From NCBI GenBank assembly GCA_009694265.1, contig SHVM01000016.1:1-36865 (forward strand): a stretch of 36,865 nucleotides of DNA, written 5' to 3'. Numbering within the stretch: the stretch's first letter is position 1; every line of letters begins with the position of its first letter. The DNA is from Pseudolabrys sp. Lineage in GTDB: Bacteria > Pseudomonadota > Alphaproteobacteria > Rhizobiales > Xanthobacteraceae. This document shows positions 18,543 to 29,132 of the stretch, in pieces. The translations under genes were made by a program, and so were the position numbers. The notes under the pieces are model-generated. The model made no database searches and had not been told where the DNA came from. It saw only the letters and a program-made list of their open reading frames with translations.

Positions 18543-20087
18543 TTACTTCTTTATTTGCTCCCCCAATCCCCGCGCTACCTCGTCGGTCGAGATACCGCCG
18601 CCGGCGCGCGCATTGGCGGCGCGCATCAGCGCGACCGGAATCGCGCCGATCAACGGCTTGAGCGCGGCGACCAGCGCCTCATCATGGGCGCGGTGCGGCG
18701 AGAGTAAAAGAATCGCGTCATAGGGCGGGATGGCGTTCCGGGGATCGTCCAGCACGGCGAGATCAAATTTGGCGATCTGGCCATCGCTGGTATAGGCCGA
18801 GATCACATCGACTTCGCCGTCGGCTACCGCTTTGTACATAAACTCGGGCTGCATCTGCCGCTGCGCGCGGAAGGCGAGCCCATAGACCTTGCCGATCGCC
18901 GCCCATTCGGGGCGCGCGAAGAATTCATAATCGCCGGCAATCGTCAGCTGCGGCGCATGCGCGGCCAAATCGGCGATGCTGCGGATGCCGAGCGCTTGCG
19001 CCTTCTTGCGCGACATCGCCAGCGCATACGCGTTCTCAAAACCAAGCCCGCCCAGCATGCGAATGCCGTGCGTGGTCTCCAGCCAGCGCGACAGTTCGCT
19101 CATCACTTCGGCGCGCGGCTTGACGTCGCCGCGGTGCATGCGGTTGGCCCAGAGCGTGCCGGAATAATCCACCGCGACATCGATCTCGTTTGACGCCAAG
19201 GCATCGAACAGCACATTCGAGCCGAGACCAGCCCGCCGCGACGCCGTGAGACCGGCCGCATTGAGCCGCTGCTCGATGAGCGCCGCCAGCACATATTGTT
19301 CGGTGAAGGTTTTGGCCCCGATGACATAAGTTGCCCGCATATGCGTGAGGCCGGGGATGAGCGCTGTCAGAGTCACCGCCACCAGGCCGAGTGCGCCGGC
19401 AGCGATCCGCATGCGGCTGCGGCCACTGACGCCGGTCTCGATCAAGCCCAGCAATTGATCGACGGTGAGCGCGAGCGCCGCGGCGGCGACGCAGCCGAAG
19501 GCCACGAACACCCAGTTTAGCGTCTGCAAGCCCGTGAAGATGTAATTGCCGAGGCTCTCTTGTCCGATCGGCGTGGCCAGCGTGGCGGTGCCGATCACCC
19601 AGACCGCGGAGGTGCGGATGCCGGCCATGATGATGGGCAGAGCGAGCGGCAGCTCGATATCGCGCAGCATCCGTCATGGCGTCACGCCGAAGATACGCGC
19701 GGCTTCGCGCAGGCGTTGATCGATGCCGTTGAGCCCGGTCACCGTGTTGCGCAGCACTGGCAGCATCGAATAGAGCGCCAGCGCCAGCACCGACGGCAGG
19801 AAGCCGAGCGCCGAAAAGCCCTTGCCGATAATGCGCTCGGACAGCGCAGATAGCGCCAGCAGCAGCGGATAGAACAGTGCCAGCAAAGCGAGGCCTGGGA
19901 TCGTCTGCACCACGCTGGCCGCACCCAGCAGGCTGGCGCGCAGCCACGGGCGGCGAATGCTGAGGATCGCGAGCGGTAAGCTGATGCCGAGCCCCAGGAC
20001 CAGCGCGGCGAGGCTCACCAGCACATGGCTTGCGAGGTAATCCGGCAGCCGCGCGAAGGCTTCGGTGAGACGAGCGTCGATCATCAT
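18543..20087 (-). pseudogene. Fused ABC permease / glycine-betaine-type binding protein (OpuCB-OpuCC like), interrupted by an in-frame TGA
   Basis: One reading frame encodes a permease domain fused to a substrate-binding domain, as in OpuBC-type osmoprotectant or EgtU-like importers. The permease part (start near 20087) includes SVVQTIPGLALLALFYPLL and YSMLPVLRNTVTGL, then IFGVTP followed by TGA at 19674-19676. The same frame resumes with RMLRDIELPLALPIIMAGIR, where family members have Trp (TGG) at the stop position. The binding domain (about 18543-19340) begins YVIGAKTFTEQYVLAALIEQ. One G-to-A change thus splits an otherwise intact gene of about 514 codons. A restart at 19670 would give a permease lacking its first helices. 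No ATPase gene for it lies nearby. Confidence 0.85.
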
Positions 20088-20209
20088 GATAGGCCGATGA
20101 TGGCATGCGGTCCGGCGCCACGGAACTCGCGTTTTCTGAACCAATATTCAGCCTATCTCTTTGGTTCGGATCGCAAAAATAGCGCGCCGCAGGCCATCGC
20201 CATCTTGAA

Positions 20210-20238
20210 ATGACAGTTCAATTACAGTCTTATGACAG
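20210..20238 (-). promoter_or_regulatory. Triple PHO box (PhoB-binding direct repeats)
   Basis: On the minus strand three 7-base units repeat at exact 11-base steps: CTGTCAT (20232-20238), CTGTAAT (20221-20227) and CTGTCAT (20210-20216). The spacers are AAGA and TGAA. This is the PHO box consensus bound by phosphorylated PhoB. The array lies between divergent genes, 123 bases from the transporter start at 20087 and 61 bases from the ATG at 20300. Its strand favours the transporter, while gene content favours the phosphatase-superfamily pair. Confidence 0.8.
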
Positions 20239-20299
20239 TGGGGCCGTGCGCTGGGTTAGCTAAAGCGCGCTCATTGCCGGGCATGGCCGTCCGCAGGTC

Positions 20300-22009
20300 A
20301 TGCTGTCCGTCGCGTCCGCACTGCTCAATCGTCTCGCGTTTTTCGAGGCGATTACCCGTCGTGACGCCGCAACCCTTGCCCTGATTGCGATCCTTCACCT
20401 CGCCGCGCTTGTCATCATGGCAACGACCGAATTCGGCATGGCGCCGAAGGCGATTTTTCTTTTCACCTGGGGCCTGCTGAATTTTTTCTGGCTTGCGGTG
20501 CTGCGGCGGCCGGCGATAGCGGCGGCGCTGTCGCTGGCGCTGATCATTGCGTTGATCCAGCTTTCGTTCTTCAAGTACGAAAAACTGATGATGACGATTA
20601 ATTTCGTCGACATGATGATTCTCGATCCCGATACGATTGCGTTCTTCCTGACCATCTATCCCGATCTCTTACAGAGAATAGTCATCGCGGCGCTTTTCGT
20701 AGTCCCGGCTCTGGCGCTGGTTTGGTGGTTCGATCCATTCCGAGTCCGGTTGCGCGCCGCGGCGGCGGGCAGTTCGTTCTGCCTCATCGGCGCCGTGGCG
20801 ATTTCGCTCGCGGCGCCTGTGCAGCCGCATGAAGCCTTCTACCCCGACGGGCACGTCTCGAAATTCATAAATTCGGGCGCCGACGCGATTCTGGAATTCG
20901 CCACGCGCGGTTATATGGAATCCGATGCGGGCGTTGCCGATAATTTCCAGCTCGCGGTTGCGGAATCCTGTCAACCGGTCGTCAAGCCGCCGCATATTAT
21001 TTTGATCCTTGACGAGTCGAGCTTCGATATCACCGCCGCGCCCGGCATCAAGGTTCCCGCCGGTTACGGCAGTCACTTCCGCTCGTTCGATGGCAAGACG
21101 CGATCGTTAATTGTCGAAGGCGCCGGCGGTCCGACCTGGTTTACCGAATACAGCGTTTTGACCGGCCTGTCCGCGCGTTCGTTTGGGCGCTTTGCTTATT
21201 TCGTCACCCGTATCGCCGTTGGCCGCGTCGAACGCGGTCTGCCACACGCGCTGAAGCGGTGCGGCTACCGGACTTTCACGCTCTATCCGGCGCGGGGAGC
21301 GTTCATGAGCGCGCGCGGGTTTCAGACGACCGCCGGCATCGAGAAGTTTTACGACGCCAAGGACATGGGCGCCAGCGGCATCGAGCCTGACTCGTTTTTC
21401 TATGACCAGACCGCGCGCGTGATCGAGCGCGAGCGCGCCAGCGGCCCGCTGTTTGTTTTCACGTATCTCACCGCCAATCATTTCCCGTGGAACTATAACT
21501 TTCGCCCGGATTTAACGCCGGACTGGCGCAATCTCGGCAACGCGCCTCACATTGAGGAATATCTGCGCCGGCAAAAGCTGAGCGAACGGGACTATGCCGC
21601 TTTTCTCGCCCGTCTGCGTCGCGACTTTCCGGCCGAATCGTTTCTGCTGGTGCGCTTCGGCGATCATCAGCCGGATTTCGCCGAGCGCATCATCGACCCG
21701 GCGTTCAGCGAACCGCAGATCGCGCGGCGCCTGCAAGCGTTCGATCCGCGCTATTTCACCACCTATTACGCAATCGACGCCGTCAATTTCAAACCGGCCG
21801 TCGTCTCATCGGCGCTCGGCACTCTGGAGGCTCCCTACCTGCCGCTGGTCATCCAGGAGGCCGCGGGCTTGCCGCTCGATCCGGCCTTTGCGGAGCAAAA
21901 GAGGATTCTCAATCGCTGCCAGGGACGGTTTTTCCTCTGCGGCAACGGCGTGGAGACGCGTCGGTTCAACCGGCTGCTGATCAACGCCGGCCTGATCAAG
22001 GGGCTGTAG
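20300..22009 (+). CDS. Membrane-anchored sulfatase/alkaline-phosphatase superfamily protein, LtaS-like (copy 1)
   Basis: A 569-residue protein with about five hydrophobic segments in the first 180 residues and a large periplasmic domain. The catalytic layout matches lipoteichoic-acid synthase and phosphoglycerol transferases. Glu239 in ILDESSFDI is a metal ligand, Thr279 in GGPTWFTEYS is the expected nucleophile, His394 lies in TANHFPWNY, and Asp455-His456 lie in VRFGDHQP. Expected activity is transfer or hydrolysis of a phospho- or sulfo-group on an envelope lipid or glycan. Candidates include phosphoglycerol transfer to periplasmic glucans (CgmB/OpgB-like), but the substrate is unknown. A PHO box array lies just upstream, suggesting phosphate control. 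It is followed after 4 bases by a same-length paralog. Confidence 0.85.
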   Translation: MLSVASALLNRLAFFEAITRRDAATLALIAILHLAALVIMATTEFGMAPKAIFLFTWGLLNFFWLAVLRRPAIAAALSLALIIALIQLSFFKYEKLMMTINFVDMMILDPDTIAFFLTIYPDLLQRIVIAALFVVPALALVWWFDPFRVRLRAAAAGSSFCLIGAVAISLAAPVQPHEAFYPDGHVSKFINSGADAILEFATRGYMESDAGVADNFQLAVAESCQPVVKPPHIILILDESSFDITAAPGIKVPAGYGSHFRSFDGKTRSLIVEGAGGPTWFTEYSVLTGLSARSFGRFAYFVTRIAVGRVERGLPHALKRCGYRTFTLYPARGAFMSARGFQTTAGIEKFYDAKDMGASGIEPDSFFYDQTARVIERERASGPLFVFTYLTANHFPWNYNFRPDLTPDWRNLGNAPHIEEYLRRQKLSERDYAAFLARLRRDFPAESFLLVRFGDHQPDFAERIIDPAFSEPQIARRLQAFDPRYFTTYYAIDAVNFKPAVVSSALGTLEAPYLPLVIQEAAGLPLDPAFAEQKRILNRCQGRFFLCGNGVETRRFNRLLINAGLIKGL

Positions 22010-22013
22010 CCCT

Positions 22014-23723
22014 ATGCGCGCCGCCGAACGAAGCCGGATATCCTGGTCCGCGCGTTTGGCCGCGGTGTTGGCGTCGCCGCGTGTGCCGATCGCCGCCATC
22101 GCGGCGCTGCATCTCGCCGCCGCGATCGCGCTCTATCGCACCGAGTACGGCTATTTTGCCGAAACTCTGGCGCTGCTGATCTGGGGCTTTCTGAATTTTG
22201 TTCTGCTGATGGTGCTGCGCCGTCCAGCGCTTTCGGCGACGGTGTCGCTGATGACGATCTCCGTCCTGATTGCGATGTCGCAATTCAAGTTCGGCATCAT
22301 GGAGATGACCGCGACATTTCTCGACGTACTGATCATCGACGCCGATATGCTGACGTTTCTGTTGGCGATTACTCCGGAGCTGCGCCTGGCGTTGCTGATC
22401 GGCGCGGCCGCGCTGATCCCGGTGACAGTGCTGCTCTGGCGGTTCGATCCGTTCCGGGTCCCGCCGCGCTGGTCGGCAACGGGAGCCGCGGTTTGCCTCA
22501 CCGGGGTGGTCGCCCTGTCGACTGCGGTTCCGGAACAGCCGTGGGAGCCGTTCGAGGGCGTCAATCACGTCTCGAATTTCACTCGCTCCGCGGTGTTGAC
22601 GCTTTCGGAACTGAGCGTGCATGGCTGGCTGGAATCGGCCAAGGCGGCGGGGCATCCGGTGCCGATGGTCGGCGAGCCGTGTCCGCCGGGGCCCAAGCGC
22701 CCGCACATCATCCTGCTGCTGGACGAGTCGAGTTTCGACATCACGGCGGCGCCGGGCATCAAGGTGCCGGATGGCTACCGCGACCATTTCCGCTCGTTCG
22801 ACGGCAAGGCGCGCTCGCTGGTGATGGAATCCACGGGCGGTCCGACCTGGTACGCCGAGTACAATGTGCTGACCGGGCTTTCGGTGCGCTCATACGGCCG
22901 CTTCATGTTCAATGTCACACGCATCGCCGCCGACCGCGTCGAGCGCGGCCTGCCGTTGGCGCTGAAACGCTGCGGCTACCGGACCTTCAGCCACTATCCA
23001 GCTTATGGCGCGTTTCTGAGCGCGCGACGGTTCCAGACCACGGCCGGCATCGACCAGTTTTTCGATCTCAAGGACATGGGCGCGCCGAACGACCTGCAGC
23101 CCGACAGCTTCTATTACGATTTTGCACGGCAGTTGATCGCGCGCGAACACGCTGCCGGTCCGCTGTTCGCATTCGTCTATGTCACGGTCAATCACTTCCC
23201 CTGGAACTGGCAGTTCCGTCCGGACCTGACCCCAGGCTGGACCGGAGCTGGCAATAGTACCGAGGTCGATGAATATATTCGCCGCCAGACCATGAGCGTG
23301 CGCGACTATGCGGACTTCTTGGCACGATTGAAGACGGATTTTCCCGGCGAGGCGTTTCTGGTGGCGCGGTTCGGCGACCACCAGCCGGCGCTATCGTCGA
23401 AAATCCTGGAGCCGGGTCTCGATCCGAAGGGGCGCGCATCGCGGATCATGAACTACGATGCCCGCTACTTCGCCACCTATTATGCCATCGACACGGTGAA
23501 TTTCGCGGCCGTCGATCTTTCCTCCGCGCTCGATACGCTCGACGCGCCCTACCTCCCGCTGGTGATCCAGGAGGCGGCCGGCGTGCCGCTCGATGCGTCT
23601 TTCGCCGAACAGAAGAAAATTCTGAACCGCTGCCACGGGCTGTTCTATCTCTGCGCCGGCGGCGCCGAGGCGCGGCGCTTCAACCGGCTGCTGATCGAAG
23701 CCGGGCTGATCAAGGGGCTTTAG
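22014..23723 (+). CDS. Membrane-anchored sulfatase/alkaline-phosphatase superfamily protein, LtaS-like (copy 2)
   Basis: A paralog of the preceding gene, also 569 residues, with the same five-helix N-terminus and periplasmic catalytic domain. The key residues are kept at matching positions: Glu238 in LLDESSFDI, Thr278 in GGPTWYAEYN, a histidine in VNHFPWNW and Asp455-His456 in ARFGDHQP. The two proteins run colinearly from end to end and share the ending RRFNRLLI.AGLIKGL, so they arose by tandem duplication. They have diverged in the membrane part and around residues 180-235. The ATG is 4 bases after the first gene's stop, so they form one transcript. Both active sites look intact, so they may act on different substrates or form a heterodimer. 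Confidence 0.85.
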   Translation: MRAAERSRISWSARLAAVLASPRVPIAAIAALHLAAAIALYRTEYGYFAETLALLIWGFLNFVLLMVLRRPALSATVSLMTISVLIAMSQFKFGIMEMTATFLDVLIIDADMLTFLLAITPELRLALLIGAAALIPVTVLLWRFDPFRVPPRWSATGAAVCLTGVVALSTAVPEQPWEPFEGVNHVSNFTRSAVLTLSELSVHGWLESAKAAGHPVPMVGEPCPPGPKRPHIILLLDESSFDITAAPGIKVPDGYRDHFRSFDGKARSLVMESTGGPTWYAEYNVLTGLSVRSYGRFMFNVTRIAADRVERGLPLALKRCGYRTFSHYPAYGAFLSARRFQTTAGIDQFFDLKDMGAPNDLQPDSFYYDFARQLIAREHAAGPLFAFVYVTVNHFPWNWQFRPDLTPGWTGAGNSTEVDEYIRRQTMSVRDYADFLARLKTDFPGEAFLVARFGDHQPALSSKILEPGLDPKGRASRIMNYDARYFATYYAIDTVNFAAVDLSSALDTLDAPYLPLVIQEAAGVPLDASFAEQKKILNRCHGLFYLCAGGAEARRFNRLLIEAGLIKGL

Positions 23724-23789: not shown

Positions 23790-24629
23790 ATGGCGGACGG
23801 CGCGACAGCGGCCGCGCGGCGGACGGCGCAGGCAGCAGCCGTCGCGCTTGACCGGGTCTCGGTCGCATTCCGGCTGGCCAACGGCAGCCTTTATACCGCG
23901 GTCGAGCGCGCCACGCTCAATGTCGCCGACGGCGAATTCGTCGCCATTGTGGGGCCGACCGGCTGCGGCAAATCCACGCTGCTCAATATTGCTGCCGGGC
24001 TGATGCCGCCGTCGGCGGGCCGCGTCGATATTTTTGGGGAGCCGCTCAACGCGCTCAACCGCCAGGCCGGTTACTTGTTTCAAGCCGACGCGCTGTTTCC
24101 CTGGAAGACCGCGCTGGAGAACGTCGCCATCGGGCTTGAGACCGCCGGTACGCCTTCGGGCGAGGCGCGCGAACGCGCCCAGGCCTGGCTGACGCGCGTC
24201 GGCTTAGGCTCGTTCGGCGATCGTTACCCGCACATGCTCTCGGGCGGCCAGCGCAAGCGCGTGGGGCTGGCACAGGTACTGATCCGCGATCCGAAAATCC
24301 TGCTGATGGACGAGCCGTTCGGTCCGCTCGATGCGCAGACCCGCCAGATCATGGGCAATCTGCTGCTCGATCTGTGGAGCGCCGACCGCAAGGCGGTGCT
24401 GTTCATCACGCACGATCTGGAGGAGGCGATCGCGCTTTCCGACCGCGTCGTCATCATGTCGGCGGGGCCCGCTGCGCGCATCATCGGCGACTGGCGGGTG
24501 AAGATCGCGCGCCCGCGCGATATTTCCGAGGTCAAGCTCGACGCCAAGTTCCATGAGTTGCACCGCGAAATCTGGCACACGCTCAAGGCCGAGGTGATCA
24601 AGGGCTATGAGCAGACGGAGGGTGGGTGA
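23790..24629 (+). CDS. ABC importer ATPase, NitT/TauT type (SsuB/NrtD-like)
   Basis: A 279-residue ATPase energising an importer for a nitrate-, sulfonate- or aromatic-like anion. Walker A is GPTGCGKST (about residues 55-63), and the Q-loop is YLFQADALFPWKTALENV. The ABC signature is LSGGQRKRVGLAQ, Walker B is ILLMDEP and the H-loop is FITHDLEEA. The ATG at 23790 follows GAAGGGGAAC. Its stop overlaps the start of the permease gene by one base, so the two are coupled. The substrate is not evident: the family is broad and the binding protein gene lies three genes downstream. Confidence 0.94.
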   Translation: MADGATAAARRTAQAAAVALDRVSVAFRLANGSLYTAVERATLNVADGEFVAIVGPTGCGKSTLLNIAAGLMPPSAGRVDIFGEPLNALNRQAGYLFQADALFPWKTALENVAIGLETAGTPSGEARERAQAWLTRVGLGSFGDRYPHMLSGGQRKRVGLAQVLIRDPKILLMDEPFGPLDAQTRQIMGNLLLDLWSADRKAVLFITHDLEEAIALSDRVVIMSAGPAARIIGDWRVKIARPRDISEVKLDAKFHELHREIWHTLKAEVIKGYEQTEGG

Positions 24630-25417
24630 TGCCGCGCGCGCAGCTCATCGTATTGCAGGCGCTGGTCGCAGTCGTCTCCATCGCGCTCTGGTACGCGCTC
24701 ACAACCTTTCCGGTGTTTGGCCGGCCGCTGCTGCCGCCGTTCTTCTTTTCCAATCCGGTGGAAGTGGCGCAGCAGATCGTCGCTTGGTTTGTCTCCGGCG
24801 TGATCTGGAAGCACCTCTGGGTAACATTGATCGAAGCGGTGCTGGCCTTTGTGATCGGATCGACCGGTGGCGTGCTGGTCGGCTTCTGGTTCGCGCGCCA
24901 GCCGCGCACCGCCGCGGTGTTCGATCCCTATGTGAAGATGGTCAATGCGCTGCCGCGCGTGGTGCTGGCGCCGATCTTCACGCTCTGGCTGGGCTTGGGG
25001 ATTTGGTCGAAGGTGGCGCTTGGCGTCACGCTCGTCTTCTTCATCGTGTTCTTCAACGTCTATCAGGGCGTCAAGGAAGTCAGCCCGACGGTGCTGGCCA
25101 ATGCGCGCATGCTGGGCATGAGCGAGCGGCAATTGATGCGCCACGTCTATTGGCCGTCGGCGCTGTCCTGGATGTTTTCATCGCTGCACACTTCGGTCGG
25201 CTTTGCCGTGGTCGGCGCGGTGGTGGGCGAATATCTAGGCTCGGCGGCGGGTTTGGGCTATCTGATCCAGCAGGCCGAGGGCGTGTTCGACGTGGCCGGC
25301 GTGTTCGCCGGCATGTTCGTGCTGGCGGCCTTTGTGATCGCGATCGATACGATTGTTACGATGGTCGAAAAACGCCTGCTGGTCTGGCGGCCGCTGGCGA
25401 GCGATAACAGGCCGTGA
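24629..25417 (+). CDS. ABC importer permease, NitT/TauT type (SsuC-like)
   Basis: A 262-residue inner-membrane permease with about six hydrophobic segments. The EAA loop that docks on the ATPase reads LANARMLGMSERQLMRHVYWPSALSWMF (about residues 156-183). Earlier, VNALPRVVLAPIFTLWLGLG is the typical proline-rich stretch. I choose ATG 24629, which overlaps the upstream TGA as TGATG; a GTG one codon before is possible. It should pair with the ATPase before it and the secreted binding protein encoded at 26313. Confidence 0.93.
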   Translation: MPRAQLIVLQALVAVVSIALWYALTTFPVFGRPLLPPFFFSNPVEVAQQIVAWFVSGVIWKHLWVTLIEAVLAFVIGSTGGVLVGFWFARQPRTAAVFDPYVKMVNALPRVVLAPIFTLWLGLGIWSKVALGVTLVFFIVFFNVYQGVKEVSPTVLANARMLGMSERQLMRHVYWPSALSWMFSSLHTSVGFAVVGAVVGEYLGSAAGLGYLIQQAEGVFDVAGVFAGMFVLAAFVIAIDTIVTMVEKRLLVWRPLASDNRP

Positions 25418-25443
25418 CGAATATCGGTTCCGGGGGATGATGC

Positions 25444-26211
25444 ATGCCGCGATTGGCTGGGAAAGTGGCTTTCATTACGGGTGGCGGCGGCGGCATCGGC
25501 CGGGCCACCGCCGAAAGATTCGCCGAAGAGGGCGCCAAGGTCGTGATCGCCGAAATCGATGATGCGCGCGGCAAGGCCGCCGCGGAGTCAGCGCGCGCGC
25601 ACGGCAAGAATTCCGATGGCGACGCTCACTTCGTGCATTGCGACGTGCGCGAGAGAACAAGTGTCGAAGCCGCGATCGCAGAGACGGTCAAGCGCTTTGG
25701 CAAGCTCACCATCCTGCACAACAATGCCGGCGGTTCCACGCCGCAAGACGGTCCGGTCACAGAGGTGTCGGAAGACGAGTTCTGGCGCGTGATCAAGCTC
25801 GACCTGTACGGCACGTTTCTCTGCTCCAAGGTCGGAATTCCCGCGATCATCAAATCGGGTGGCGGTTGCGTCATCAATATGACGTCGACGCTGGCGCTCA
25901 ATGCCGTGCCGGGGCGCGATTGCTACACCGCCGCGAAAGGCGCCATCGCCTCGATGACGCGTTCCATGGCGGTGGAATATGCGCCGCACAAAATCCGCGT
26001 CAACGCAATCGCGCCCTCGGTCACGCTGACCGATCGGGTCAAGAAGTTGATGGAGGGATCCAAGGACATTGAGAAACTGGCCTCGACCCATTTGCTCGGG
26101 CTTGGACTTCCGATCCACATGGCCAACATGGCGGTCTATCTGGCATCGGACGAGGCGGAGATCACGACCGGCCAAATCATGGTGGTCGATAGCGGCTCAA
26201 CGATCTGGTAG
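25444..26211 (+). CDS. Short-chain dehydrogenase/reductase (SDR)
   Basis: A 255-residue NAD(P)-dependent oxidoreductase of the classical SDR family. The cofactor motif is ITGGGGGIGRA (about residues 11-21), an acidic residue after VVIAEIDDA suggests NAD preference, and HNNAGG marks the core strand. The catalytic set is Ser in NMTSTLALN with Tyr and Lys in YTAAKGA. The C-terminus ends with TTGQIMVVDSGSTIW. It sits between the permease and binding-protein genes of an ABC importer, 26 bases after the permease. It therefore probably oxidises or reduces the imported compound or a product of it, an alcohol or ketone; the identity cannot be read. Confidence 0.92.
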   Translation: MPRLAGKVAFITGGGGGIGRATAERFAEEGAKVVIAEIDDARGKAAAESARAHGKNSDGDAHFVHCDVRERTSVEAAIAETVKRFGKLTILHNNAGGSTPQDGPVTEVSEDEFWRVIKLDLYGTFLCSKVGIPAIIKSGGGCVINMTSTLALNAVPGRDCYTAAKGAIASMTRSMAVEYAPHKIRVNAIAPSVTLTDRVKKLMEGSKDIEKLASTHLLGLGLPIHMANMAVYLASDEAEITTGQIMVVDSGSTIW

Positions 26212-26312
26212 CCGGCGGCCGGCATCGAGGCCCTAGTCAGGCCGCGCGTGCTGGCCTATCGTTGGTGCCGAATTGGCCTGCTAAAAGGCCTCGCAATTCA
26301 AGGGAGGAATTC

Positions 26313-27335
26313 ATGTCAGCGATGATCCGGCGGCTCGTTACCACGCTCGCGGCGCTCGTGCTCTCAAGCGGGCTCGCGCTCGCGCAATCGAAAGTCACGC
26401 TCGCCATCGGCGGCGCCTCGTGCCTGTGCTATCTGCCCACTATGCTGGCCAAGCAGCTCGGCGAATTCGACAAGGCCGGCATCAATGTCGAGGTGGTCGA
26501 TTTCAAGGGCGGCTCGCAAGCCCTGCAAGCCGTCATGGGCGGCAGCGCCGACGTGGTCTCCGGCTATTTCGATCACTGCGTCAATCTCGCCGCCAAGGGA
26601 CAACATTTGCAGTCCTTCGTGGTCTATGACCGCTATCCCGGCTTCGCGCTGGTGGTGTCGCCCAAACACACCGCCGAAATTAATTCGATCAAGGATCTCG
26701 CCAACAAAAAAGTCGGCGTCAGCGCGCCCGGCTCCTCCACCGACTTCTTCCTGAAATACATGCTGAGCAAGAACGGCGTCGATCCCAACTCGGTCGGCGT
26801 GATCGGCGTCGGCTTAGGGGCCACCGCGATCGCCGCCATGGAGCAGGGCCAGATCGATGCCGCCATCATGCTCGATCCAGCGGTCACGCTGCTGCAAGGC
26901 AAGAACAAGGATCTCAAGATTCTCAGCGACACCCGCACCCAGAAGGACACGATCGCCGTGTTCGGCGGCGAATATCCGGGTGGCGCGCTTTATACCAAGG
27001 CCGATTGGATCGCGTCGCACGAGAAGGAAGTTCAGGGTATGACGAATGCGATCGTCGCCACGCTGAAATGGATTCACTCGCATACGCCGGAGGAGATCGC
27101 CGACAAGATGCCGCCGGAATTGGTCGGCAAGGACAAGGCGCTCTACATCGCCGCGCTCAAGAACACTCTGCCGATGTATTCGGAAACCGGCCGCATGGAC
27201 CCGAAGGGCGCCACCGCGGTGCTCGCCGTGTTCGCGCAGTCCTCGCCGGAGGTGGCCAAGGCCAATATCGACCTGTCGAAGACCTACACCAACAAATATG
27301 TTGACGCGGCCAACAAGAAGTTGGGGATGAAGTAG
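26313..27335 (+). CDS. ABC importer periplasmic substrate-binding protein (NMT1/SsuA-like)
   Basis: A 340-residue secreted receptor. The N-terminus is a signal peptide (LVTTLAALVLSSGLALA, cleavage before QSKV, about residue 25). The mature protein shows the NMT1/SsuA fold: KVTLAIGGASCLCYLPTML at the start with a Cys-Leu-Cys in the ligand cleft region, GGSQALQAVMGGSADVVSG, ANKKVGVSAPGSSTDFFLKY and AAIMLDPAVT. I use ATG 26313 because GGAGG lies 6 bases upstream; an earlier in-frame start at 26262 would spoil the signal peptide. It belongs with the ATPase and permease at 23790-25417. A strong hairpin after the stop closes the operon. Confidence 0.93.
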   Translation: MSAMIRRLVTTLAALVLSSGLALAQSKVTLAIGGASCLCYLPTMLAKQLGEFDKAGINVEVVDFKGGSQALQAVMGGSADVVSGYFDHCVNLAAKGQHLQSFVVYDRYPGFALVVSPKHTAEINSIKDLANKKVGVSAPGSSTDFFLKYMLSKNGVDPNSVGVIGVGLGATAIAAMEQGQIDAAIMLDPAVTLLQGKNKDLKILSDTRTQKDTIAVFGGEYPGGALYTKADWIASHEKEVQGMTNAIVATLKWIHSHTPEEIADKMPPELVGKDKALYIAALKNTLPMYSETGRMDPKGATAVLAVFAQSSPEVAKANIDLSKTYTNKYVDAANKKLGMK

Positions 27336-28151: not shown

Positions 28152-29020
28152 ATGAAACTCGACTCTATCGCCAAGCGCTTTCGCATCGACAAGCCGGACA
28201 AGTTCCGGCTGTCCGATCACGATCCGGCCGAGTGCTGCGGGCTCACCATCGACAAGAGCGACGCCAAGACGATGCTCGCGCAAGGCATCGAGCGGCTGAG
28301 CGCCTTGCAGGAGCGGCTCTACGCGGACGGCCGCTGGTCGGTGCTGATCGTGCTGCAGGCGATGGACGCCGCCGGCAAGGACGGCGTCATCAAGCACGTG
28401 TTGAGCGGAATTAATCCGCAAGGCGTCGAGGTGAATTCCTTCAAGCAGCCGAGCGAGGAGGAACTGGCGCATGATTTCCTCTGGCGCATCGGCATCTTCA
28501 ACCGCTCGCATTACGAGGAAGTGCTGACCGTGCGCGTTCATCCGGAATACCTCGCGCGCCAGGAGCTGCCGAAGGTTCTCGTTGGCAATGATATCTGGCG
28601 CCAGCGCTGCAAGGACATTCGGGCCTTCGAGCGCCATCTCGCCCGCAACGGCACGCTGATCCTGAAATTCTTCCTCAATGTGTCGCGTGACGAGCAGCGC
28701 AAGCGCTTTCTTGAGCGCATCGACGAGCCGGCCAAGCGCTGGAAATTATCCATGGGCGACATCGCCGATCGCAAGCTTTGGCCCAAATACATGATCGCCT
28801 ATGACGAGGCGATCCGGCAGACCAGCAGGCCAGCAGGCCAGAAGCGCCCTGGTTCGTGGTGCCGGCTGATAACAAATGGTTCACGCGGCTGGTGGTGGCG
28901 GGGGCGATCGTGCAGGCGCTGGAATCGCTCAAGCTCGAATTTCCCAAGGTCGGAGGCAAGGCGCGCAAGGAATTGCACAAAGCGCGCAAGGCTCTGCTGG
29001 CCGAACGTGCTGGCCGCTGA
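28152..29020 (+). pseudogene. ppk2: Polyphosphate kinase 2, frameshifted by an 8-bp tandem duplication
   Basis: The frame from ATG 28152 (GAGGT ribosome-binding site) encodes a PPK2-family enzyme, which transfers phosphate between polyphosphate and nucleotides. Walker A MDAAGKDG is at residues 71-78, followed by NPQGVEVNSFKQPS, FNRSHYEEVLTVRVHPE and RCKDIRAFERHL. At 28822-28837 the unit CCAGCAGG occurs twice in tandem and shifts the frame after about residue 224. Removing one copy restores SRPEAPWFVVPADNKWFTRLVVAGAI and a normal C-terminus ending at TGA 29018-29020, 286 residues in all. As it stands, translation runs in the wrong frame to 29051, losing the conserved APWFVVPADNKWF segment. Confidence 0.88.
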
Positions 29021-29132
29021 GCCCTTGCGCGGCTGCAGGCCAATCCGCTAAAAGAGCCGCCAAGCTGGGGTTAAGACGGATTTAAAGCATTTCCGCCACC
29101 CTGGCGGTCGAAAACGAGGACTACCGAGGCAA

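Follow-up and report, generated by a model that had tools for sequence, protein, structure and literature searches.

A putative PhoB-type triple array over the predicted promoter of an LtaS-like gene in Pseudolabrys sp. and related genera

An array of three tandem PHO-box-type units stands between a transporter gene and two genes coding for LtaS-like enzymes in a draft MAG of Pseudolabrys sp. (GCA_009694265.1, contig SHVM01000016.1), and its position raises the question of which flanking genes it serves and whether a regulator bound there would activate or repress them. The initial annotation of this region, made from the 36,865-nucleotide stretch that was analysed (the window), had described three minus-strand units at exact 11-base intervals, two perfect and one with a single mismatch. 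This description was confirmed exactly: from 20238 to 20210, the minus strand reads CTGTCAT-AAGA-CTGTAAT-TGAA-CTGTCAT. The gene setting that it had reported also stood, with a pair of 569-aa LtaS-like proteins on one side and, on the other, a transporter frame broken by an in-frame TGA at 19674-19676. The coordinates of these features, and of those proposed below, are collected in Table 1.

Table 1. Features of the array region (window coordinates).
Feature	Position	Strand	Basis or remark
Triple PHO-box-type array	20210..20238	minus	Sequence, conservation in orthologues, matrix from pst-locus boxes
Array unit CTGTCAT	20232-20238	minus	
Array unit CTGTAAT	20221-20227	minus	
Array unit CTGTCAT	20210-20216	minus	
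Candidate -35, TTGAAA	20205..20210	+	Best sigma70-like pair, 17-nt spacer; 4.5% of shuffles score as high
Candidate -10, TCTTAT, within the array	20228..20233	+	Sigma70-like scan
Alternative candidate -10, TACAGT, in the middle unit	20223..20228	+	Register of other genera; TAC invariant in 21/21 arrays
G-rich block, GGGGCCGTGCGCTGGG	20240..20255	+	Just downstream of the array; alignment
LtaS-like gene A, 569 aa	20300..22009	+	PF00884; conserved E239, T279, D455-H456
LtaS-like gene B, 569 aa, tandem paralogue	22014..23723	+	4 nt downstream of gene A
Glycine betaine/choline-type ABC permease and binding-protein fusion	18543..20087	minus	Neighbour, outside the element

Rarity and motif of the array

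The full triple, allowing up to three mismatches, occurs once in its own genome (2,494,857 bases in 119 contigs, 91% complete), and the reversed-pattern control gave no match. Pairs of units at the same tolerance are unremarkable in the window, with four matches vs. 1.9 expected, a count reached by 17 of 100 shuffles. Ten other two-unit CTGTCAT sites with one or two mismatches were observed in this genome (e.g., G000:C28:5852-5869). A search for perfect TGTCA triples in the 29 array-bearing genomes returned one match, near a winged-helix-like ORF, vs. one match of the control. Across the genus, a looser triple search found matches in 7 of the 43 genomes: four are arrays at LtaS-like genes, two lie beside phosphonate-transporter genes (G033 and G004) and one is elsewhere in G002. 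The triple arrays beside the phosphonate transporter (L048:5023-5051 and L049:5023-5051) carry two mismatches; PhnD and PhnE are confirmed in G033, and the genes of G004 were assigned by resemblance.

The claim that the motif is of the PhoB type was upheld by comparison with the Pho promoters of the genus itself. Ten pst-phoB loci were fetched from other genomes of the genus, two of which end before the box region. A matrix was built from both half-sites of the eight boxes, which were assigned to pst by position (PstS was found by family search in L059, with PF12849 support in L062). Among the 296,834 29-mers scored, drawn from the window and six loci of which two are training loci of the matrix, the window array ranks first and its orthologues in G024 and G034 rank second and third. 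Like the pst-phoB boxes (CTGTCAT-N4-YTGTCAT), the array consists of tandem 7-bp units with an 11-bp period and a TGTCA core, which is TGTAA in the middle unit. In other genera the motif drifts to units such as ACGTAGT and CGGTCAA, and several units there score poorly on the pst matrix. From these similarities, we infer that the array is a PhoB-type operator and that PhoB is its binder.

A different response regulator of the OmpR/PhoB family might bind instead, in which case the element would still be an operator of the LtaS-like genes. Direct repeats spaced by 11 bp are common in this family, and the motif drift in other genera would suit such a regulator, as would the gene content of the MAG itself, where other response-regulator matches were found and neither PhoB nor PstB was recovered above the curated cut-off. 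The TGTCA core, however, and the position of the window-clade arrays as the best match to the pst-box matrix argue for PhoB, and we regard a different binder as unlikely, although deserving of some weight.

PhoB is present in 35 of the 43 genus genomes, including the array carriers G024 and G063, while the array carrier G034 is without it. In relatives, a gene that we take to be GcrA-like lies near phoB in at least five of the ten fetched loci. This gene is missing from our MAG (G000) and from five of the seven other genomes in which PhoB is absent or weak, G034 included; in G029, one of the two such genomes that have it, the gene lies at a contig end. Because this neighbour of phoB is missing too, an assembly gap, rather than loss, is the likely reason for the missing PhoB of our MAG.

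Association of the array with the LtaS-like gene

The transporter gene was found in 21 of the 43 genus genomes, and the array lies upstream of only four of these genes (G024, G063, G034 and the window). The same four loci, and none of the other 17, have an LtaS-like gene in their flanks, searched by tblastn up to 1.5 kb. In a Hyphomicrobiales MAG contig (L002), the LtaS-like pair follows an ilvC-like gene and the array is kept, and no transporter was detected by tblastn within 10.5 kb. The array and the LtaS-like gene of L105 (G406) likewise follow an ilvC-like gene, and in the window such a gene lies beyond the transporter.

Matches to the LtaS-like protein at E <= 1e-80 were obtained in 16 of 397 genomes of the order, the own genome included. 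Arrays were recovered at 19 of the 27 LtaS-like genes whose upstream DNA was examined (L098 by a looser pattern only). Three of the eight genes devoid of an array (L106, L109 and L110) are the second gene of a tandem pair. Four others (L006-L009) have near-identical upstream DNA and belong to a group that follows a creatininase-like ORF, as confirmed in G023 and judged by position in G030 and G002. The last, L107, is not behind another copy and yet is without an array, which makes it the sole unexplained miss among the 27. The remote homologue L010 (32% identity) has no site. In G023, the array-less homologue behind the creatininase-like gene (L040:8591-13000) lies near PhnM, PhnN and PhnF genes.

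The exact pattern TTG-N8-TGAC-N7-TTAC-N7-TGAC was matched 22 times, in 19 of the 198 family genomes, vs. once for the reversed control, and all 22 matches immediately precede an LtaS-like gene on the strand of the match; ten are arrays already counted and 12 are new. It has no match among the 11 genomes of the window genus in this set, the own genome included, because the TTG of the window clade sits 5 nt closer. In addition, orthologous intergenic regions compared across relatives retain the array; loss of the repeats there, which the initial annotation had named as speaking against its proposal, was not seen. A chance or inert motif would be compatible with the frequency of unit pairs in the window and with the inertness of many PhoB sites inside E. 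coli genes (excerpt of PMC10294691), but it is scarcely credible given the conservation across six genus labels and the occurrence of all exact matches at the same gene.

The neighbour upstream of the array is co-directional with the LtaS-like gene in 17 of 21 loci, as judged from the top-ranked GC3-weighted ORF (uncertain in L094 and L101), and divergent only in the four loci where the transporter is that neighbour. In 6 of the 16 loci from other genera (L092, L095, L097, L100, L103 and L105), the transporter is convergent, 3' of the LtaS-like gene and away from the array. The two genes are thus neighbours across genera in varying arrangements, and a functional link between them, for example through choline or betaine headgroups, is conceivable.

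These comparisons bear on the suggestion of the initial annotation that the array might drive the transporter that it faces. As a canonical PhoB activation site for this divergent betaine/choline transporter, the array would read in the right direction and lie about 120 nt upstream of the start of the gene. Nevertheless, the array tracks the LtaS-like gene in loci with and without the transporter: it is absent from all 17 transporter genes with no LtaS-like neighbour in the fetched flanks, it is kept in L002, and the transporters of other genera, if near, stand beyond the 3' end of the LtaS-like gene. A pst-like -10 is also missing at the canonical distance in the window (see below). The array was therefore rejected as a transporter promoter, and its use as an activation site for that gene is very improbable. 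On sequence grounds, four lines of evidence agree in assigning the array to the LtaS-like gene at 20300 instead of the transporter. The decay of the transporter has no visible link to the array: the copies in G024 and G063 are free of stops, a stop is present in G065 and in a fragment in G061, and the copy in G034 is split beside an ambiguous base.

Both LtaS-like proteins of the window contain PF00884, the domain being related to LtaS/GacH. When ten relatives were combined into a profile, it matched six sequences of solved structure (1.3e-7 to 2.3e-4, among them 4uop at 1.3e-7, 5wcx at 1.3e-6 and 2w5q at 7.1e-6), which bear the names lipoteichoic acid primase, GacH/phosphoglycerol transferase and lipoteichoic acid synthase. 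In the alignment with GacH, E239, T279 (Ser in 7 of the 10 aligned sequences) and D455-H456 coincide with catalytic places, and we take Glu, Thr/Ser and Asp-His to have catalytic roles in LtaS-type enzymes. The likeness of the window proteins to the LtaS/LtaP/GacH phosphoglycerol transferases thus consists of profile matches and conserved catalytic-site residues, although the overall similarity is remote. The enzyme would accordingly be a phosphoglycerol transferase, and transfer to a periplasmic glucan is our guess. An AlphaFold2 model of protein A, computed from four sequences, had a mean pLDDT of 47 and was left unused. Gene B is presumably on the same transcript as gene A. The pair is followed in the window by a taurine/sulfonate/nitrate-type ABC transporter (23790-27335; similar ORFs in G024) and by a PPK2-type polyphosphate kinase gene above the family cut-off (28152-29051; similar ORF in the G024 neighbourhood).

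Orientation of the array and the predicted promoter

In every one of the 33 arrays (21 together with the 12 from the exact pattern), the TGTCA tracts run antisense to the LtaS-like gene; the searches covered both strands, except for L098, which was placed by a pattern run on one strand. Promoter-like pairs were sought with a generic sigma70 scan, using E. coli-like weights that were entered by hand. For all 16 sequences from other genera, the best plus-strand pair is TTGNNN-17-TACNNT, which places the -10 at array position 13; L092 has TACAAA there. Four of the five window-clade sequences give TTGNNN-17-TCTTAT, or TTTGAT in the case of L002, and their -10 falls at position 18; in the fifth, L005, the pair of this type scores 6.7 vs. 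6.8 for the best plus-strand pair. A TTG occupies the candidate -35 place in all five window-clade sequences. The -35/-10 register therefore differs between the window clade and the other genera.

The best plus pair outscores the best minus pair in 19 of 21 sequences, the exceptions being L093 (minus 8.6 vs. 5.0) and L004 (6.8 vs. 6.7). Measured against 200 mononucleotide shuffles of the same 189 bases for each sequence, the best plus pair ranks within the top 5% for 12 of the 21 sequences and the best minus pair for 1 of 21; in the other nine, the plus pair falls outside the top 5% of these simple shuffles. This conserved promoter-like sequence would be the promoter of the LtaS-like gene.

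In an ungapped register of 129 columns, all 13 invariant columns are inside the array (TGAC, T, TAC, T, TGAC), although the arrays were placed by their best fit to TGAC/TNAC/TGAC within the final 400 nt, a procedure that itself makes these letters look more invariant. Mean column identity reaches 0.84 in the array and drops to 0.53 and 0.55 on its two sides. Every one of the 21 arrays has TAC in place of TGAC in its middle unit, a departure from TGTCA that makes one half-site weak. In the 16 sequences from other genera, this TAC coincides with the predicted -10. Across the aligned sequences, then, the single mismatch of the initial annotation is a conserved feature.

The G-rich block downstream of the array (GGGGCCGTGCGCTGGG) varies hardly at all among the five window-clade sequences and was not seen in the other genera compared. 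A hairpin just downstream of the array, suspected by eye, was dropped, as RNAalifold on 21 sequences returned no consensus pairs. An inverted repeat, CATGGCC...GG(C/T)CATG, surrounds the start codon of the LtaS-like gene in the window (~20283-20303) and in L039, and it might hide the ribosome-binding site.

The layout differs from that of the pst-phoB boxes of the genus, which are on the phoB strand with the -10 located 8 nt downstream in 8 of the 8 loci where the region is present (TATAAA, CATAGA or TATATT, read by eye). The array, in contrast, is antisense, has three units and lies over the promoter. A matrix made from those eight -10s gives them scores of 6.3 to 10.1. At 6-10 nt past the 21 arrays, the best score on the minus strand is 1.9 (AATGAA, 6/21; window -3.3), and on the plus strand it is -1.8. 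The canonical PhoB-activated layout of a sense box followed about 8 nt downstream by a -10 is therefore not found at the LtaS-like arrays, and the array was rejected as a canonical activation site.

These observations also qualify the expectation that PhoB simply drives the LtaS-like genes. PhoB could activate them in phosphate starvation from the antisense array, through an unusual geometry, with the enzyme stripping phosphatidylglycerol headgroups in lipid remodelling. The link of the array to the LtaS-like gene and the PhoB-type motif are consistent with such activation, as is a homologue of the enzyme that lacks the array and is located in G023 next to genes for C-P lyase (PhnM, PhnN and PhnF above the cut-off). 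It is nevertheless distinctly improbable: all 33 arrays are antisense, the plus strand offers no pst-like -10 at the right distance (-1.8 vs. 6.3 to 10.1), the likely -10 is covered by the array, and the pst boxes of the genus use a sense layout. As the antisense arrays lie over the likely core promoter, repression fits better than activation.

A possible repressor site and its significance

We lean toward repression, with only modest confidence: 20205-20238 would constitute both promoter and operator of the LtaS-like gene, occluded by PhoB in phosphate starvation. The same element probably also serves gene B. RNA polymerase would start a plus-strand transcript from a sigma70-type promoter, with the -10 and the greater part of the spacer embedded in the three antisense tandem PhoB-type half-sites. 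When phosphate runs short, phosphorylated PhoB would occupy all three half-sites and, as the array would cover the spacer, the -10 and the start site, it should block RNA polymerase. Such a block would save glycerophosphate derived from phospholipids, which the LtaS-like enzyme would otherwise transfer to an acceptor in the periplasm. Both the repression by the binder and its phosphate-saving purpose are inferences from sequence, drawn for the most part from draft genomes.

Known cases offer partial parallels. A dual role of PhoB, set by where its site lies, has been described (excerpt of PMC10294691), and in E. coli phoB, a tested case, two antisense half-sites around the -10 repress at high levels of phosphorylated PhoB (excerpt of PMC6194859). 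The LtaS-like arrays resemble this auto-repression site at the sequence level, with antisense tandem half-sites overlapping the predicted -10, and blocking of RNA polymerase has been proposed for the E. coli site in the same excerpt. They also differ from it: the E. coli site consists of two weak half-sites with a 1-bp overlap in a promoter with an additional, activating box (excerpt of PMC6194859), whereas the LtaS-like array has three half-sites at an exact 11-bp period, another target gene and cross-genus conservation.

In Bacillus subtilis, PhoP represses the teichoic-acid genes tagAB/tagDEF (Liu et al., 1998, as cited in an excerpt of PMC4415409), so that genes for a phosphate-rich envelope polymer are shut by the phosphate-starvation regulator, much as we suggest here. 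This analogy is our own, since the Bacillus case concerns a Gram-positive PhoP and wall teichoic acid, and the present one an alphaproteobacterial LtaS-like gene with TGTCA boxes. Among the titles and abstract openings searched, no description of PhoB control of LtaS-type or phosphoglycerol transferase genes was found.

Extended to the whole family, the proposal would be that phosphorylated PhoB shuts off an LtaS-type glycerophosphate transferase through three antisense half-sites merged with the core promoter, one of them serving as its -10. We put this forward tentatively, at somewhat less than an even chance, and it is with the same reserve that the family-wide shut-off may be seen as a Gram-negative counterpart of the way in which Bacillus saves phosphate by switching off teichoic-acid genes. 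PHO boxes have usually been interpreted as sites of activation. If the proposal is true, a family-wide antisense array fused with a core promoter would allow PhoB to be tested cleanly in the role of a dedicated repressor. The signature given above is a further outcome, and its exact matches in the 198 genomes all mark an LtaS-like gene. The LtaS-like enzyme of alphaproteobacteria, so far unstudied, would, if the proposal holds, be tied to the phosphorus economy of these bacteria.
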